A stretch of 33,432 bases of DNA from Candidatus Daviesbacteria bacterium RIFCSPLOWO2_01_FULL_37_10 (GCA_001776865.1 MFDK01000008.1:1384-34815); one strand, 5' to 3'; positions 15,373 through 33,432 are shown, counted from the stretch's first letter. The notes: generated by a model from the letters alone, not told the origin. Numbers and translations: made by a program.

Positions 15373-15825
15373 CTATATTTTCCACATTAGAAACCTCTTG
15401 TCAACTCTTTTTCTCAATCTGTGCGTACTTAATATCTCTCTATAGCTTTTTTTCCAGGATGCGTAGGCAATAACCAATTTTTGCAAACCCCTATCTTCTA
15501 ATTCTTTCCGTATCACTCCGCCGTGATGAGGATATTTATGAAGTTTAGCTTTCGGAGAAGAAAAACCGTGTGTATAATGACAAAGCTCATGCGCAATTGT
15601 ATGATCTATGACTAAAGCAGGAATATTCTCATCTTTAAACATACTTGTGATTGTAATATGTGAGCTTTTCGAACGCCTATCCATCTTTATAGAGCCCAGG
15701 CGAAATCTGGAGAAACGCCCAAATCTAATAAATACTTTATTTTCCTGGAGGACATCAGGGAAAAAATTCGACCATATATAATCTAACCTTGATAAAAGCC
15801 AAATATCATTTCTCATTGCTTTCAT
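15373..15825 (-). CDS. SprT/YgjP-like zinc metallopeptidase
   Basis: IDHTIAHELCHYTHGF (HExxH), HHGGVIRKELEDRG. Confidence 0.75.
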   Translation of the reverse strand: MKAMRNDIWLLSRLDYIWSNFFPDVLQENKVFIRFGRFSRFRLGSIKMDRRSKSSHITITSMFKDENIPALVIDHTIAHELCHYTHGFSSPKAKLHKYPHHGGVIRKELEDRGLQKLVIAYASWKKSYREILSTHRLRKRVDKRFLMWKI

Positions 15826-18595
15826 TACTTCCTTCCTCCTCGTTTACCATCCACCAGTCAAAACTCAAATCTTCCTCTACTACCCCTGGTGCAGAAACGG
15901 TAAATAAACTACTCTTAACTTTCTTTGTTACAGCCAGAACTCTATCTGTTTCTGTGGTTGGCGTAATAAGTATTCTGGAGTTTTCTTCGACTAAAGGACT
16001 TTCCAGATTAACTGATTTATTTCCTTTCTTAATTACACCTTGTCCTGTAATCTTATTAGAAACTACCTTAAAATCTGCGACTAATATACTTTGGGCTTTT
16101 AAATTACCTGTACTATCGATCGTAACTTTTCCATTAAACAAATCTACAAACTCAGCCAAAGGCGAGCTTTGCAGATAAAGGGTTTGAAGTGCGTTTATAG
16201 AATTCTGAGATACACTAAGAGTTCCATCTACTGATAAATCACCAGCAATAGTAGTTGTGCCAAGAAAAACATTACCCAACGATTTCAATGTACCTGAAAT
16301 TACAACGTCTAAAGTCGTCAGAAGTTTTTCAGAAGATAAGTTTTCTGTTACTTTGAGATCAGTTAATAATCCTCTGCTGCTTGTCCCGGGCAATGCCGAG
16401 GGAGTAGCTAGAAGTTCATCCGGGGGCTCAAGATCCAAAGGATCAGATGATTTAAGACTCTGGCTTATTTCTTTACCGGTATATGGAAATTTTTCATTCG
16501 CCTTTTCAATATCTTCTATCTTGGATTGCAATCTATTAAGCTGAGCAACAGTTTTTGCATTTTCTATCTCGCTGGATAAATAATTTGCTTTAAGTAATTC
16601 TAAACTTGCAGTAATATCCAACGCATCCGGGTTTTCACTCATTTCATCTTGTAAATTCATTTTTCTAACGTCAATTATTAGCTGCGCAGTCTTTAACTTG
16701 GGTATTACTAGACTTCCTTCTTCGTCAATAACAAGATTTGCTAATACTTGAGCCGGATCAGCAAATGTTGGATTTACAAAGATCATGATCTTACCTTGGC
16801 AAAGCATAGGAGAAACTCCGGGAGTTTTTTGGGATTCAACTCCCGGAGTTAAACAATCGGCAGTGAAGCTTTCCAAAGCTTTACCCACTACCTGACCAGG
16901 TACTGTCGCCTTCATTGCAACGCCCGGGGTAGATGAGCTGGTTAAATAATCGCCAGGTTCGATTTCTCCATTTTCAGTGGAAACTTTAACAGGAACCCTG
17001 CCTGCTAAGGCAACCGGTTTTGGATTTAAATTTCCTTCACTATTTTTAAGGCTTAATTTAAATCCTGGAGCCGTGGATATAATTCCAAAAAGTTCTTTTT
17101 GATATGGTTTATTTGCTTTTTTAATATTTTGATATTCACTTATTATAACCAAATCCCCTTGATCCGAATCATCAAGCACATTATATTCTTCTGCAATATC
17201 TGCATTTCCGGAAGTTATAGCAGTTGCCGCTGCAGAAATTACTCCATCTGCAAATACATCACCCTCAAAATCAACTCTAAATACTGAATTATTCACGCCT
17301 GAAACCTGTGAATCCAGCCTCAGAATATCGGAATCCAAAATATTTAAATCCGAGACTAGATGAAGTCTTGATAACGGCGAATTTGTTCCAATCCCAACTG
17401 CACCTGTTTCATCTACAACAAAGGGTGTTAAATCAGAAAAACTCCCGTCATCATTAATGATAAACTTGTTTTCTCCGGAAATATTTATGCTAAAATCAGA
17501 ACCATTCGCACTATCAGAGAGTGTAATCTTAATATCCCGGTTATCCGAAGTTTTAAACTCGCTACCTGTATCATAAGCTGATTGTAAACTTGAAATATTA
17601 CTTAATGAATTCCATCCGGAAGCTGATTTTATATAAAGCCCTGAAGATGCATCAGATTTTTTGAAGTAATAATCCCCTGCAGTTCCTAAACTTATTTCCG
17701 GTACTTCGGAACCGTTTAACAGTTCAATACTCCCAAGCTTAAAATTATTAGCTGCAAAAACATCCCCGAATATTTTTTTAATATATGCTTCTTTAAAACT
17801 TGAATCCGGACTGCCTAAAATCAGCAAATCACTCTGAGAGGGTTTAATATCCTTAGAAATAACACCTGAAATTTCTAAGTTAGTTTGGGGGATATAAATA
17901 TATTGATTTTCAATCTCAGGTTCAGGCTCTGATTGAATATTGCTTACCGATTTCTGAAGGTTTTCAACTGCTCCTGCAATCTCATATATCTGGCTTGCCA
18001 GGTTTTCTGTTTTTTCCCCCAATATATTTTTAGACTCATTTATAAAATTATTTTCTATAGAGTTAAAATAATATGCTCCTGTTATTAAGAAGAAAATTAT
18101 TAATATTAGTATGCTAAAACCCAAAGAGAGTCTTGACAATCTAAACGATTCCTTTTTATTTTTAGCAATTAATACCCCTTGAGTGCTAACACGATTTTCC
18201 AGGAGTTGGTCAATACCTAGTGAGTTCTGTAGCTTAGTTATTTCTCTTTTACTAAACCTCCTTGCTCCACCTTTTGTCCTAACGCTTTGAATTAAACCTT
18301 TGTTATCCCATGCTCTTATGGTATCTTTTGAAACTTGAAGCAACTTAGAAGCCTTACCAACTGAGATCAAACTTAATGCTTTAACCGGGCTTAATTCACT
18401 TTTTAAAGCTTTAAGTTGACTTAAGTTATACCTTCTTGATCCGCCACTCGTTCTTAATACCTCAATTTTACCCTGCTTTTCCCAATTTCTTAATGTGTCA
18501 GGGGAAACCAGTAGAAATTTAGCCGCTTTAGAAATAGAGATGAGACCTCTTTTTTGGGATATATTTTCTGTATTTGGCAGTTTAATTTTAGGCAT
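15806..18595 (-). CDS. Tandem MerR-like HTH + single TM + extracellular tail-fibre/peptidase-G2-like surface protein
   Basis: ISKAAKFLLVSPDTLRNWEKQGKIEVLRTSGGSRRYNLSQL and ISVGKASKLLQVSKDTIRAWDNKGLIQSVRTKGGARRFSKREI; TM LGFSILILIIFFLITGAYYF; VGIGTNSPLSRLHL; ADIAEEYNV...ALAGRVPVKVSTENGEIEPGDYLTSSSTPGVAMKA. Confidence 0.85.
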   Translation of the reverse strand: MPKIKLPNTENISQKRGLISISKAAKFLLVSPDTLRNWEKQGKIEVLRTSGGSRRYNLSQLKALKSELSPVKALSLISVGKASKLLQVSKDTIRAWDNKGLIQSVRTKGGARRFSKREITKLQNSLGIDQLLENRVSTQGVLIAKNKKESFRLSRLSLGFSILILIIFFLITGAYYFNSIENNFINESKNILGEKTENLASQIYEIAGAVENLQKSVSNIQSEPEPEIENQYIYIPQTNLEISGVISKDIKPSQSDLLILGSPDSSFKEAYIKKIFGDVFAANNFKLGSIELLNGSEVPEISLGTAGDYYFKKSDASSGLYIKSASGWNSLSNISSLQSAYDTGSEFKTSDNRDIKITLSDSANGSDFSINISGENKFIINDDGSFSDLTPFVVDETGAVGIGTNSPLSRLHLVSDLNILDSDILRLDSQVSGVNNSVFRVDFEGDVFADGVISAAATAITSGNADIAEEYNVLDDSDQGDLVIISEYQNIKKANKPYQKELFGIISTAPGFKLSLKNSEGNLNPKPVALAGRVPVKVSTENGEIEPGDYLTSSSTPGVAMKATVPGQVVGKALESFTADCLTPGVESQKTPGVSPMLCQGKIMIFVNPTFADPAQVLANLVIDEEGSLVIPKLKTAQLIIDVRKMNLQDEMSENPDALDITASLELLKANYLSSEIENAKTVAQLNRLQSKIEDIEKANEKFPYTGKEISQSLKSSDPLDLEPPDELLATPSALPGTSSRGLLTDLKVTENLSSEKLLTTLDVVISGTLKSLGNVFLGTTTIAGDLSVDGTLSVSQNSINALQTLYLQSSPLAEFVDLFNGKVTIDSTGNLKAQSILVADFKVVSNKITGQGVIKKGNKSVNLESPLVEENSRILITPTTETDRVLAVTKKVKSSLFTVSAPGVVEEDLSFDWWMVNEEEGSNESNEK

Positions 18596-18599
18596 AAAA

Positions 18600-18666
18600 G
18601 TTATGAAAAAGTTATGAAAAAGTTATGTCCTGCTTTAAGATAAACAAAAATCTTTGGATTTGTCAA
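18600..18666 (-). promoter_or_regulatory. Promoter with three 11-bp-phased direct repeats (CATAACTTTTT) upstream of the HTH surface protein
   Basis: Minus strand: TTGACA (18661-18666), 18-nt spacer, TATCTT (18637-18642), then CATAAC at 18622-18627, 18611-18616 and 18600-18605; ATG at 18593-18595. Confidence 0.65.
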
Positions 18667-21840: not shown

Positions 21841-21878
21841 ATCTCGGGCTAAGCAGACGGAAGCCCGAGATTTTTTTT
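21841..21878 (+). terminator. Intrinsic-terminator-like hairpin in the 5' leader of the c-like gene
   Basis: ATCTCGGGCT-aagcagacgga-AGCCCGAGAT followed by T-tract: 10-bp perfect stem. Confidence 0.85.
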
Positions 21879-21918
21879 GGACTTTGACTTATCTTCCTTC
21901 TTGTTATACCCTGAATAT

Positions 21919-22809
21919 ATGCTAAAGGCTCTCGTCAATATAATAATTAAAATTTTCTCTCAAAGAAAATTTCAAGCTCTGCTTATAATCTTTACAATTC
22001 TTCTCGACCAGAATTATATGAGAAGCATTTATTCTTCGAATATAAATTCGATACTACCTCTAGCCCTACCCCCTGTTTTTGCACAATCTGATATAGCTGC
22101 AACGTATGATTTAAGCGAAAATATCCAAAATGGTGATATATTAATATACAAACCTGAAACAGGAATATCAAAATCAATAATCCCTTATGACTTCAACATT
22201 TTTGGTGTAAAACAAGATACACCTATTGCAGTATTTCGAAGGGTTGATAAAACAGACAGCGCAGTTGCAAGATCCGGAATTGCACAGGTAAATGTAACCA
22301 CTGTAAACGGGTCTATTAAAACCGGAGACCGCATAACTTCATCCCAGATCCCGGGTTTCGGTATGAAAACCGGAATTTCAGGTTATGTATTGGGAGTTGC
22401 AATGAGCTCTTTTGGAGATACAGACGGTCAGGATTTTATTTTTCAGGATCAAAAATTAAGAGCCGGAAGGATTCCTGTGGCTCTAAAGATTGAGTATGCG
22501 GAGCTTACATCTCCAAGGTCTTTGAATAATTTTTTCTCATATCTCGGTACATCATTTTTGCAGGGAGTAAATGACCCCAGAAACTTAAACCAAGCTATAA
22601 AATATATCTTTTCAGGGCTAATCCTGCTTGTTGCCATAAGCTTCAGCCTGATAATCCTGATACGTTCAATTCCTAAGTCAATTGAAGCAATTGGAAGAAA
22701 CCCGCTGGCCAGAAGAACAATTATGTTTTCTATTATTTTGAATATTTTTATTGTTATTGTAATAACCCTTGGCGCAATCCTTGCTGCATTCATTATCCTG
22801 CGATTGTAA
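21919..22809 (+). CDS. Secreted-domain protein ending in an F-ATPase subunit c-like two-TM hairpin
   Basis: Signal/TM then SDIAATYDLSENIQNGDILIY...GIAQVNVTTVNGSIKTGDRITSSQIPGFGMKTGISGYVLGVAMSSF; C-term YIFSGLILLVAISFSLIILIRSIPKSIEAIGRNPLARRTIMFSIILNIFIVIVITLGAILAAFIIL. The track start 21877 is TTG in the terminator U-tract, so ATG 21919 is preferred. Confidence 0.7.
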   Translation: MLKALVNIIIKIFSQRKFQALLIIFTILLDQNYMRSIYSSNINSILPLALPPVFAQSDIAATYDLSENIQNGDILIYKPETGISKSIIPYDFNIFGVKQDTPIAVFRRVDKTDSAVARSGIAQVNVTTVNGSIKTGDRITSSQIPGFGMKTGISGYVLGVAMSSFGDTDGQDFIFQDQKLRAGRIPVALKIEYAELTSPRSLNNFFSYLGTSFLQGVNDPRNLNQAIKYIFSGLILLVAISFSLIILIRSIPKSIEAIGRNPLARRTIMFSIILNIFIVIVITLGAILAAFIILRL

Positions 22810-26307: not shown

Positions 26308-28490
<2,183 letters not shown>

Positions 28491-28493
<3 letters not shown>

Positions 28494-28526
28494 GTGGCTT
28501 AAGTTACTTTAAGTCACTTAAATTAC
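28491..28526. repeat. Family C repeat (taagtggcttaagttactttaagtcacttaaattac)
   Basis: Contains the beta TAA stop (28491-28493); similar to 12287-12319. Confidence 0.7.
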
Positions 28527-28528
28527 GT

Positions 28529-28792
28529 ATGGCTGAAGAAACATTAAAATTACGCATCGTAACTCCAAGAGCTGTTGTATTTGAGGGCAAAGCTTTATCG
28601 ATCTCATCTACAAACTCCAAAGGAAAATTTGACATTTTGCCCAAACACGCAAATTTTATTACCATAGTTGAACAAAAACCAATAATCATAAGGGTGGAAG
28701 GCAGAAAAAGACTGACTTTTAACTTTCCTGTTGCAATAATTTCAAATGTTAGAAACCAGGTTAATATTTATACGGATATCTCCCTGAAATAG
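28529..28792 (+). CDS. atpC: F-ATPase subunit epsilon (N-terminal beta-sandwich only, 87 aa)
   Basis: LKLRIVTPRAVVFEGKALSISSTNSKGKFDILPKHANFITIVEQKPIIIR is a typical epsilon N-domain. Confidence 0.9.
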   Translation: MAEETLKLRIVTPRAVVFEGKALSISSTNSKGKFDILPKHANFITIVEQKPIIIRVEGRKRLTFNFPVAIISNVRNQVNIYTDISLK

Positions 28793-28889: not shown

Positions 28890-28960
28890 TTGACAAACCT
28901 CTGCAAATCTATGTACGATGAGTAAAGAATCTATGCAAAATGCAAGATTTACATAGATTT
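28890..28960 (+). promoter_or_regulatory. Promoter with three AATCTATG half-sites upstream of the giant HTH surface protein
   Basis: TTGACA (28890-28895), 18 nt, TACGAT (28914-28919); AATCTATG at 28906-28913 and 28928-28935, inverted CATAGATT at 28952-28959; 11-bp perfect IR AAATCTATGTA (28905-28915)/TACATAGATTT (28950-28960). Confidence 0.65.
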
Positions 28961-29007
28961 TGAGCAGACGGACAAGATTTTGGACAAGCCAGAATGACAA
29001 TACCCTT

Positions 29008-29033
29008 GTCATCCTGAACTTGTTTCAGGATCC
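29008..29033. repeat. Family A half-element in the 5' leader of the giant gene
   Basis: gtcatcctgaacttgtttcaggatcc. Confidence 0.8.
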
Positions 29034-29038
29034 ACACA

Positions 29039-32000
29039 ATGAAGGATCCGTTTGCAACTTTAGATTTAGTTAAAATTAGTGAAGCTGCCAGAATACTTGG
29101 TGTGTCTATTGATACACTAAGGAGGTGGGAAAAGGCAGGGAAAATTACACCAGTCAGAACTCCGGGAGGAACAAGATTATATTCTCTTTATGAACTGCAA
29201 GATATAAATCCAGCGGCAATAAGATATTCTCTACAGGTTCCATCTACAAAAGAGTTATTTGAGAAAAAAGAACAGGAAGATGATAATTTAACTGTCATCT
29301 CGAACGCTAGTGAGAGATCTCAAGATTCCTCCTTACAAAAACAAACCACTGAATCTAGAGATTTCTCGCCTGTGGCTCGAAATGACAAAAATACCAAACC
29401 CTATCTTACTATATCACTTATAAGTTTGCTTATCCTTCTAACAGCCGGGTCTACTCTTTTCATAAACTCATTTCTCGATCATCCCGGAGGGAGCGGAAAG
29501 GAGGCAAAACTACATATCAATCCAAATGTACTTGCTGCATCAACCATTACAGCAGAGGGAAAATTCCTGGAATTCAATGCTGATACTGTCATAACCGGAA
29601 ATCTGGCGGTTGAAGGCGAAGGAATTTTTGGTGAAAACCTTACAGCTCCGAATATTATTTACGACCTTGTTGCAGGAGAAGGAATAACTATTTCTGAAGG
29701 CCAAACCCCAACAATTTCATCGTCAAGTTTAGATACGCTTGCAACTGTTACGGCTAGAGGATCAATAACAACAACAGGGATAACTCTTGGTGACGCACTA
29801 AACCTTGGAAATCTTGCCTCTGACCCTTTATCTGCCGCAAACGGTGCAACTTATTACAATACAGGATCCAATAAATTCCGCTGCTACATTAACGGCTCCT
29901 GGAAAGACTGCGATACAGATACAAACTCCGGCGGATCAATGAGTTCTTTCACTCTAGCAGGAACTTCCGGAACATCTCAAACTATATCAGACAGTAACAC
30001 ATTAACCATTGCAGCTGGTACAGGGATAACAACTACCGCAGAAGCAACTGATAAAGTAACAGTTGAGGCAACTCTGGGTACTGATATTGATACCAGCGAG
30101 ATTATCGACAATACTATCACTTCTTCAGATTTAAATGCTGCATTGACATTCGCAGATGGTGATTTCATAGATCTAGCCTCAATCATACATGATGATTCGG
30201 CTCTTCAGGGTTTAAGGTTGCCACAGGCAGCAAGTTTGACCAACCTAACTTCAGGCGAGGGATTTTTGGCATGGGACAGTGATGATAACCAGGTTAAAGC
30301 TTATAACGGCTCTTCATGGACCAGTATATCAGGAGCTTCAACTACACTACAGGAAGCTTATGGTAATGATACTGACGGATCTGATGCTATTGTTGCTCTA
30401 ACTGCTGATGATGACTCATTAATTTTCAGAAATCCTGCAACTTCCGGAACTGATTCCGGATATATTTTAAAACTGGACCAGCTTGCAACCGGTGCTGTTG
30501 ATGTCTTGCAAATTTCAAATGCCGGAACCGGGACTCTTTTAACCCTTGATTCCTCAGGAACAGGAACCAGTGCTGATGGAATATTAATCAGGCAAACCTC
30601 TTCCGGTACAATCACAGATGCTATAGATGTAACTGATGAAACTATAACAAATGCAATCAATGTAGGTACCAATACTATCGCCGGTACAACCGCAAATATT
30701 GATCTAACCTACTTTGATGTAGCTGGCACAACAGGTGCTGTAACCATTGATCCTCAAACAACAGGAACTTATCTGGACTTTACTCTGGAGACAGAATGGA
30801 CAAACGGAACCTTGATTAATGCAGACTATGCCTCTGCAACAACCCAATCCGGAGGAAATATTACAGGGGCATCGTTTAATTTTAACTCCAATTTAACCGG
30901 CGCTGCGGATCTGGATGTAACAGGGATAAATGTACAAACTCCTGCACTAACGCAGTCTAGCGCGGTTACAACAAATTACATTGGCTATAATATCTCTGCC
31001 TCCGGGGCTTTAACTCAAGATATCGCAGCAGGAGTAATTAATTGGAGGGGTGTAGATCTAACTACTCCAGCACTTACAGAAACTACTGGTACTATCACCT
31101 CATATGGAATTAATGTATCTCCAGGATCTGCCGGAGCTGGAGCAGAATTTGCCGGTATTAATATAGCAAACTCTGCTGGAGGTGGATCAACCACAGAATA
31201 TGGTTTAGTTATTGGTTCAGGATACGACCAGGACTTAAGATTTGTAGATACCTCAATCCAGCTGGTATCTTCCGGAGCTGATGGACAGTTTGATTTTACA
31301 GATGGATCAAATACTCTCTGCAGCATAGATGATACAGGATCTGTTGGCAACCTTTCCTGTACAGGTACAATAACAGGAGTAGGCGCCGTTGGTTACTGGA
31401 CTAGAACCTCGACCACCCTCTCTCCTGCTACAGCAAATGATATAGTATCCATAGCAACTACAAATACAACCGGAGCAGATTTAGCTATCACTAATACTGG
31501 AATTTATACTGGTACTGGGATAGTTAATATTACTGCTAATTCAGCTACTTCTGGAGACATATTAACACTCTCTGCAACAGCTTTAAGTACTGGTACAGCT
31601 CTAACTCTAGCAGGTCCAACTTCTACTGGAGTAACTGATCATTTTGTTAAAATCTCATCAGATGTTGGATCTGCTTCCTCCCTAGTTAATCTTAACCCAG
31701 ATTTTAGTGGATCTGCTGTAACAGGTTATGGAGTATATAATTTAGCTACTGATGCAACAGGAAATGGTAATACAGATTATGGATACTATGGATCTCTGGC
31801 TTTAACAGGTAATGCAGGAAAAATTGGCACCGGTATCTACTCTACAGTAACTTCCACCTCAACCACTGCTGATACCTTATATGGAGTAGATATACTTACT
31901 GACCATAACGCTGCTTCAGCCTCAGGAAACAAAACATTATATGGACTGCGTTCTCAAATAACGAATGATGGAATAACCGATGCCGCCGGAACTCACAATA

Positions 32001-33432
32001 TTTATGGCGGATATTTTGTAGCAACAGGAAATACAGGGGGTACTTCTACAACTTATGGTATATATACAGATGCCAACGCAGCTGATACCAGCTATGGAGT
32101 ATATATAGATGACGGAGCAGGAACTACTGATTATGGAGTTTATCAGACTGCTGCTGATGATGACAACTATTTTGCAGGTAATGTGGGATTAAATGATACT
32201 ACCCCAACAGAGGGAAGATTAACCCTGGCTAACGCTTCTAATACTGTACCGGCATTTTATCTAACAGAAACTACCGCCACCACTTTGGGAAATGGAGCCA
32301 ATACCACTGGAGTAATTGATTTACAATCTACTACTCTAACTACCGGTAATTTCTTAAATATAGAGGTAAATGCCTTAAACTCCGGAAAGGCCTTAAATAT
32401 AACAAACACAACAACCCTAACCTCAGGCACATTAGTCTATGCATATACTGCATCAACTGCCCTTACCGGAACTGCCACAACAGGAAACGGACTTTTGGGT
32501 AATTTTGAATGGGCACCGGGTTCATCAACAACTGCCACTGGAGATTTATTCAGAATTGCTATCGGCACAAGCGGTACAACTACGGGTAACCTTTTTAATA
32601 TCGTTGATACAACAAGTTCTATTTTTTCCGTATCAGAAACAGCGCTTACTACTTCCCTACCTTCGAACTTTACCTCTACCGGAGATGTTTCTATAGCTTA
32701 TGATATCAATTTTACTAACCCCACGGCAAATTTTATAAAGTCCCAAGCCCCTATTAATATTACTGCAGGAGAATCGTTTAACTCTACTGACTTGACCCTT
32801 TCAACATATAATTTTGGCTCTGTAATAGTGGATTCAACAGTTACTACCAGTGCAGCTGCAAGCACAAAATATGCTTTTTATATAAACACAGGTGACACTA
32901 CCACAACAGCAGATACAATCTACGGGCTCTACTCAACAAACGCCCTATCAGGTGCTGCTGCTAAAATAGGTTACGGAATCTATTCTACAGTTACCTCTTC
33001 TTCCACCACAGCTGATACCCTTTACGGCGGATATTTTGCAACTACCGCCTCCGGCAATGCAGCCAGGACTGCTAATTACGGCGTTTATAGTAACCCGGCA
33101 TCTTCCTCTACCACAGCTGATACACTATACGGACTATACTCTAATCCTGTTAAAACAGGCATAACAACCACCGGAACTCAATCCAACTACGGAGGTTATT
33201 TTGCCCCATCGTCCACAGCAGCAACTACCTCAACTGTTACAGATGTTTTTGGGGTATTTGTTTCCAATACAGCAACTCATGCAACTAATCAGGGTACAGT
33301 AAACTCATACGGGCTTTATATCGACAATGGAACTTCAGATGCAAACGGCACTTCAACAAAATATGGTATCTATGTTGAAAACTTAAGTTCCGCTGACAAT
33401 AATTATTCAGCCATCTTTGCCGGAACCAATGC
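29039..33432 (+). CDS. Giant MerR-like HTH + TM + Thr/Ser-rich repeat surface protein (>=1464 aa, runs off the window end)
   Basis: MKDPFATLDLVKISEAARILGVSIDTLRRWEKAGKITPVRTPGGTRLYSLYELQ; TM YLTISLISLLILLTAGSTLFI; later STTADTLYGGYF..., TANYGVYS..., STTADTLYGLYS. Same frame read at both ends; the track lists no terminated long ORF here, so it appears open. Confidence 0.9.
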   Translation, partial: MKDPFATLDLVKISEAARILGVSIDTLRRWEKAGKITPVRTPGGTRLYSLYELQDINPAAIRYSLQVPSTKELFEKKEQEDDNLTVISNASERSQDSSLQKQTTESRDFSPVARNDKNTKPYLTISLISLLILLTAGSTLFINSFLDHPGGSGKEAKLHINPNVLAASTITAEGKFLEFNADTVITGNLAVEGEGIFGENLTAPNIIYDLVAGEGITISEGQTPTISSSSLDTLATVTARGSITTTGITLGDALNLGNLASDPLSAANGATYYNTGSNKFRCYINGSWKDCDTDTNSGGSMSSFTLAGTSGTSQTISDSNTLTIAAGTGITTTAEATDKVTVEATLGTDIDTSEIIDNTITSSDLNAALTFADGDFIDLASIIHDDSALQGLRLPQAASLTNLTSGEGFLAWDSDDNQVKAYNGSSWTSISGASTTLQEAYGNDTDGSDAIVALTADDDSLIFRNPATSGTDSGYILKLDQLATGAVDVLQISNAGTGTLLTLDSSGTGTSADGILIRQTSSGTITDAIDVTDETITNAINVGTNTIAGTTANIDLTYFDVAGTTGAVTIDPQTTGTYLDFTLETEWTNGTLINADYASATTQSGGNITGASFNFNSNLTGAADLDVTGINVQTPALTQSSAVTTNYIGYNISASGALTQDIAAGVINWRGVDLTTPALTETTGTITSYGINVSPGSAGAGAEFAGINIANSAGGGSTTEYGLVIGSGYDQDLRFVDTSIQLVSSGADGQFDFTDGSNTLCSIDDTGSVGNLSCTGTITGVGAVGYWTRTSTTLSPATANDIVSIATTNTTGADLAITNTGIYTGTGIVNITANSATSGDILTLSATALSTGTALTLAGPTSTGVTDHFVKISSDVGSASSLVNLNPDFSGSAVTGYGVYNLATDATGNGNTDYGYYGSLALTGNAGKIGTGIYSTVTSTSTTADTLYGVDILTDHNAASASGNKTLYGLRSQITNDGITDAAGTHNIYGGYFVATGNTGGTSTTYGIYTDANAADTSYGVYIDDGAGTTDYGVYQTAADDDNYFAGNVGLNDTTPTEGRLTLANASNTVPAFYLTETTATTLGNGANTTGVIDLQSTTLTTGNFLNIEVNALNSGKALNITNTTTLTSGTLVYAYTASTALTGTATTGNGLLGNFEWAPGSSTTATGDLFRIAIGTSGTTTGNLFNIVDTTSSIFSVSETALTTSLPSNFTSTGDVSIAYDINFTNPTANFIKSQAPINITAGESFNSTDLTLSTYNFGSVIVDSTVTTSAAASTKYAFYINTGDTTTTADTIYGLYSTNALSGAAAKIGYGIYSTVTSSSTTADTLYGGYFATTASGNAARTANYGVYSNPASSSTTADTLYGLYSNPVKTGITTTGTQSNYGGYFAPSSTAATTSTVTDVFGVFVSNTATHATNQGTVNSYGLYIDNGTSDANGTSTKYGIYVENLSSADNNYSAIFAGTN
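29294..29386. repeat. Family A-type element inserted in frame in the giant protein (93 nt = 31 codons)
   Basis: gtcatctcgaacgctagtgagagatct...agagatttctcgcctgtggctcgaaatgac; encodes VISNASERSQDSSLQKQTTESRDFSPVARND. Confidence 0.8.
31832..33150 (+). repeat. Degenerate YGxY / STTADTLYG repeat array in the giant surface protein
   Basis: IGTGIYSTVTSTSTTADTLYGVDI (from ~31829) vs IGYGIYSTVTSSSTTADTLYGGYF (from ~32966) vs ASSSTTADTLYGLYS (from ~33098). Confidence 0.8.

Follow-up and report, generated by a model that had tools for sequence, protein, structure and literature searches.

The giant protein encoded at the end of the window, i.e. the whole stretch of 33,432 nucleotides analysed here, is best explained as a surface fibre acting on the expression of its own gene: a membrane-tethered BldC-like autoregulator joined to a phage-tail-fibre-like surface protein. 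From sequence data, we put the probability of this reading at about 70%. If it is true, a structural surface protein would double as its own transcription factor, and this throughout much of a lineage of the CPR, bacteria in which little is understood of surface proteins. Besides, the protein-operator pairs make the specificity testable in vitro, with no culture of the organism needed.

The giant protein and its domains

The window corresponds to G000:C8:1384-34815 of a Candidatus Daviesbacteria (CPR) draft genome of 969,723 bases in 40 contigs. The reading frame that begins at 29039 is uninterrupted up to the window end, where a scaffold gap of 41 N starts exactly; coding resumes beyond it, and the rest of the gene could be traced through a second gap (40 N) to a stop codon at L005:8857, which gives the full length listed below provided the gaps stay in frame. 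The downstream gene, which carries DUF2341 and LamG-type domains, overlaps the giant gene. The parts of the protein present in the window are:

29039..33432, + strand: the giant HTH-TM-surface protein, about 2,310 aa long, of which the N-terminal 1,464 aa are in the window
29069..29206, + strand: MerR/BldC-type winged HTH, residues 11-56 (VSIDTLRRWEKAGKI ... RTPGGTRLY), from Pfam, BldC chains and AlphaFold
29207..29401, + strand: hypervariable cytoplasmic linker, residues 57-121, from the alignment; residues 87-120 have a pLDDT <50
29402..29476, + strand: single transmembrane helix, residues 122-146 (AlphaFold helix; hydropathy TM 124-142)
29477..33432, + strand: Thr/Ser/Gly-rich ectodomain, in-window portion, from the translation and the comparison with members

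The N-terminal HTH announced by the preliminary description is firmly recognised: residues 12-48 match Pfam MerR (PF00376) with an E of 1.3e-14, MerR, MerR_1 and HTH_17 all exceed their cut-offs, the nearest chains of solved structure are those of BldC (6amk, 6ama), and AlphaFold models residues 11-60 with a pLDDT of 91-96. The score for the NCBIfam BldC subfamily is 30.1 bits, for a cut-off of 77. The single TM, previously placed around residues 120-142, is found there by both hydropathy and AlphaFold. The Thr/Ser/Gly-rich, YGxY-type repeats are likewise seen in the translation, and a search of the gene for DNA tandem repeats found no array.

The ectodomain begins with a juxtamembrane VLA motif and a block LTAPNIIY...GQTPTI, both common to other members. 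The VLA motif (window 29528-29536, residues 164-166) lies outside the TM, is nearly invariant and recurs in other families. Such conservation could be expected if a protease cut near the membrane and let a free HTH fragment regulate the gene. However some 20 residues separate the motif from the TM in the window's protein, and more than that in other proteins; cleavage at this place would therefore not alone free the HTH, and we regard a released regulator as very unlikely.

A second member of the family, P0001, is found in the window on the opposite strand:

15806..18595, - strand: P0001, 929 aa, with a pair of MerR HTHs, then a TM (by eye around residues 155-178) and a tail-fibre-like ectodomain
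18596..18628, - strand: three tandem 11-bp repeats CATAACTTTTT directly 5' of the P0001 ATG, predicted RNW-class operator
18637..18666, - strand: predicted P0001 promoter, TTGACA at 18661-18666, 18-bp spacer, TATCTT at 18637-18642

Its C-terminal half is homologous to the C-terminus of the giant protein. The fibre character of these proteins is suggested by relatives: members L052 and L047 contain a Peptidase_S74 chaperone domain (E about 1e-13), L047 has PHROG tail-fibre matches, and the modelled terminal domain of P0001 has a weak structural match to the tailspike of cyanophage Pam1 (E 4e-3, rmsd 1.9 over 72 columns). In the window's giant protein, the parts that could be read have no Pfam S74 match. 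For the ectodomain (pLDDT mostly <50) and for the C-terminus of P0001, AlphaFold gave models mostly of low confidence, the usable parts being the HTH, the TM and one terminal beta domain. As the ectodomain model is poor, a trimeric stalk, which is likely, is argued from the S74 domains of the relatives and the one weak structural match.

Two side observations concern the same proteins. GC-rich palindromic stretches at L005:8481-8525 and in the window near 16920 encode an in-frame TPGVE in both giant proteins, and possibly represent a small mobile palindrome. At 21877-22809 (+ strand) the window also encodes a 310-aa membrane protein, devoid of any Pfam match, with a stretch resembling the "GRVPVKVS...GD.LTSSS.PGVAMKA" module of the giant proteins.

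Distribution of the family and its locus

With the N-terminal part as a query, matches were found in 35 of 45 family genomes, many of them within frames that stay open over 600-4,500 aa. In 18 out of 20 long regions there is an ORF with a single or double HTH at its N-terminus, followed by one TM and a long ectodomain, the longest ORF reaching 4,508 aa; L039 and L048 gave no HTH call. Outside the family but within the same class, most of 20 loci also show the HTH-TM-ectodomain layout, L153 being a clear exception, with a different protein. The fusion thus recurs in dozens of independent assemblies within and outside the family, single-contig genomes (G007, G029) included, and the frame is unbroken to the window end; that HTH and repeats are separate genes, or that the fusion is an assembly error, is excluded. 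A search with the start of the ectodomain alone reached 7 of the 45 genomes, and HTH-less versions may exist. In Woesebacteria there is a shorter relative composed of an HTH, a linker of ~130 residues, a TM and a short tail mostly ending in SPIP or SPVP; forms of this HTH-linker-TM type that lack an ectodomain and end few residues past the TM are L085, L092, L100, L102, L117, L120, L122 and L132.

After removal of duplicates and of members without a called TM (P0001 was exempted from this last filter), the analysis comprised 38 distinct family genes, whose recognition helix is of RW type in 29 and of NW type in 9. The giant gene has conserved upstream neighbours:

27120..28792, + strand: atpD and atpC, with synteny in relatives

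Among the RW genes, 21 of 29 lie directly 3' of atpD-atpC; L028, L031 and several NW genes adjoin leuS. This usual place after atpD-atpC makes it a fixed chromosomal locus, and a prophage origin is not favoured.

The HTH and its presumed contacts with DNA

In BldC, Thr27, Arg30, Trp31 and Arg47 are named as DNA contacts (PMC5859096). They align, with an offset of one, with T26, R29, W30 and R46 of the giant protein, which are invariant in 20 aligned members; among these the HTH hardly varies, while the stretch that links it to the TM is hypervariable. By contrast BldC Lys26 and His46 are replaced by D25 and T45, so that the base preference should differ from that of BldC. The conserved contact residues, together with promoter repeats that match the HTH class (see below), give good support to DNA binding by the giant protein. 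Another function is known for an HTH-TM protein: the HTH of RodZ binds MreB. The HTH could similarly anchor a cytoplasmic partner and not DNA, but this is hardly credible, since the positions in the wing and recognition helix through which BldC touches DNA do not vary, and the promoter motifs track the HTH class.

Phased repeats in the promoter of the giant gene

Ahead of the giant gene we find a predicted promoter and four putative half-sites:

28890..28895, + strand: predicted -35 element TTGACA, present in relatives
28914..28919, + strand: predicted -10 element TACGAT, 18-bp spacer, from the sequence and relatives
28896..28905, + strand: putative operator half-site 1, degenerate (AACCTCTGCA), within the promoter spacer
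28906..28915, + strand: putative operator half-site 2 (AATCTATGTA)
28928..28937, + strand: putative operator half-site 3 (AATCTATGCA), 22 bp from half-site 2
28950..28959, - strand: putative operator half-site 4, an inverted copy that reads AATCTATGTA on this strand

The exact motif AATCTATGYA has three copies in the window, all inside one 54-bp stretch before the giant gene. When one mismatch is allowed the single half-site is not rare (10 matches in the window, 7.5 expected), so that the claim rests on exact sites, their clustering and their phasing. In its own genome the 22-bp double site has one exact match, at the giant-gene promoter, and one further match with 3 mismatches; the tandem 10-bp form is found at its own promoter with 2 mismatches and at one other place with 3. 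The repeat pair of P0001 matches at P0001 alone.

This near privacy bears on a proposal of the preliminary description, a surface adhesin or contact sensor signalling straight to DNA. In a contact sensor of ToxR/CadC type, the ectodomain would sense contact with a host or surface and the tethered HTH would switch an adhesion gene set. The layout is indeed that of published transmembrane transcription regulators, and the DNA-binding half of the proposal is well supported by sequence. On the other hand the genomes searched have the phased double site almost nowhere but at its own promoter, a pattern more in keeping with autoregulation than with a sensor that commands a regulon, and Pfam recognises no ligand-binding or sensor domain; the contact sensor therefore appears rather unlikely.

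The region around the start codon shows a further feature. Within 28970-29070 of the window a GCAGACGG box stands 5' of the ATG and could pair with CCGTCTG or TTGTCC just 3' of it in a putative start-codon hairpin, an arrangement also seen in L014, L012, L016 and others, many of the RW class. For the inverted repeat GCAGACGG ... CCGTCTG, stems of at least 8 occur in 12 of 29 RW genes versus 45 of 460 controls, which hints at translational control too. Compared with Rfam, the 5' region gave nothing above threshold, and one sub-threshold chance match.

Promoter repeats follow the HTH class

AATCTATGYA, with at most one mismatch, is present in 25 of 29 RRW-class promoters (at least two copies in 22, at least three in 19). 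Of the control ORFs 34 in 461 have it, and Markov shuffles yield 0.08 matches per promoter; the promoter counts are not independent, as orthologues share descent. The eight controls with at least two copies comprise three truncated family members, one gene divergent from a member, and genes of IS607 type or MerR genes. Spacings on the same strand peak at 10, 22/23 and 32/33, and an inverted copy follows. The first two copies occupy the 18-bp spacer between -35 and -10, where the mean column identity over 24 promoters is 0.84, versus 0.47 upstream and 0.41 by random expectation; the alignment was anchored on TTGACA, whose own identity is therefore no evidence. More AATCTATGYA clusters were noticed at L062:6479-6503, L070:6254-6284, L069:6513-6545, L021:1662-1694 and L027:1415-1469, several of them apparently within a coding region.

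RNW-class genes have instead CCTAACTTTTT-like repeats with an 11-bp spacing, and the KTLRRW HTHs of other families go with AACTTGGACA repeats. The table of HTH class against motif is nearly diagonal: D-RR with AATCTATGYA in 26 of 30, D-RN with TTCCTAANTTTT in 9 of 11, and K-RR with AACTTGGACA in 6 of 8, the motifs being defined and scored on the same promoters except for L138, L140 and L086, which belong to other families, agree with the pairing and count as independent checks. Several members (L017, L049, L050, L054) have no recognisable site. A tentative view is that, as part of a self-limitation of the fibre, each HTH class diverged in step with its operator, among paralogues as well as between families.

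A proposed surface fibre regulating its own gene

Under the favoured reading, that of a fibre acting on its own gene, the BldC-like winged HTH would remain cytoplasmic, one TM helix would anchor the protein and the very long tail-fibre-like ectodomain would project outward. The HTHs, probably several of them clustered through oligomerisation of the fibre, would bind head-to-tail to the 10-11-bp phased repeats, which occupy the -35/-10 spacer and would extend beyond the transcription start. Once bound, the HTHs would most likely block RNA polymerase and so restrain, by negative feedback, the production of a very costly protein. The position of the sites over the spacer, the -10 element and the early transcribed region argues for repression by the protein's own HTH, and the giant protein is probably an autorepressor. 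Nevertheless MerR proteins can activate from an operator located in the spacer, and the regulation may instead be positive. The acting form of the HTH could be the nascent chain, the mature tethered protein or a released fragment. It is conceivable, though we advance it with reserve, that the N-terminal HTH, made first, binds its own promoter through the private operator and so limits the number of fibres, possibly during translation and export of the chain.

The same early synthesis of the HTH, and sites at its own gene only, would also suit a mere tether. RacA anchors the chromosome, and the HTH might in a comparable manner hold its own locus at the membrane and aid co-transcriptional export of the giant chain, with little regulatory role. 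The MerR-like RacA is moreover said to contact DNA via an arginine equivalent to BldC Arg30 (PMC5859096). But the sites fill the promoter spacer, which is no neutral place and points to transcription control; a simple tether seems unlikely.

Comparison with known systems

An earlier description of the HTH-TM-giant family was not found in the open-licence PMC papers searched. Like the giant protein, ToxR, CadC and TcpP unite in a single polypeptide a DNA-binding domain at the N-terminus, one TM and a part outside the cytoplasm (PMC10269533), and with a DNA-binding domain and a TM in one chain the giant protein has the layout of one-component transmembrane regulators. The ToxR-like architecture previously claimed holds as an analogy of this layout, the ectodomain being giant, but not for the DNA-binding domain, which is of BldC/MerR type: Pfam finds in the giant protein no Trans_reg_C domain, the OmpR/PhoB type of ToxR and CadC. 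The ectodomain, fibre-like and up to thousands of residues long, and the phased operator, essentially at its own promoter only, also differ. The main text of a survey of transmembrane regulators, in which more than 100 DNA-binding domains occur, names neither MerR nor Patescibacteria; MerR-type cases may stand in its tables (PMC10269533).

BldC of Streptomyces (6amk, 6ama) is the closest solved HTH, and equivalents of its Arg30, Trp31 and Arg47 are found in the winged HTH of the giant protein. It binds direct repeats head-to-tail and cooperatively, about one helical turn apart (PMC5859096); phased direct repeats at about such a distance also stand in the promoters studied here. However BldC is a soluble protein of 68 residues with many targets, whereas the giant protein is membrane-tethered with a private site. 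Classical MerR proteins also differ: in place of their dimerisation coiled coil, effector domain and palindromic operator, the giant protein has an HTH leading into a variable linker and a TM, and putative sites that are mainly direct repeats.

TnpA of the IS607 family binds cooperatively to direct repeats, as BldC does, the repeats measuring about 9-11 bp in the two systems; those of TnpA are four in number, 9 bp long and in helical phase (PMC6188088). It has like the giant protein an N-terminal MerR-type domain, but is a serine transposase with a resolvase domain and not a surface protein. The cyanobacterial TnpA genes L088 and L096 have the same recognition helix and, beside their start, AATCTATG-like copies in tandem with a 10-bp spacing. 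As other IS607 genes with SIDTLRRWE, e.g. L090, lack such copies, the TnpA motif counts as supporting evidence only. Separately, the cyanobacterial HTH proteins L105-L107, L109 and L110 are preceded by AATCTAGGCA or TATCTATGCA, L106 being found with pPIWI_RE-associated domains. Finally, the likeness to S74 phage tail fibres comes through the S74 domains of L052 and L047, the PHROG matches of L047 and the terminal domain of P0001; at the opposite of such fibres, the giant protein is cellular, sits at a conserved chromosomal locus and carries an HTH and a TM.
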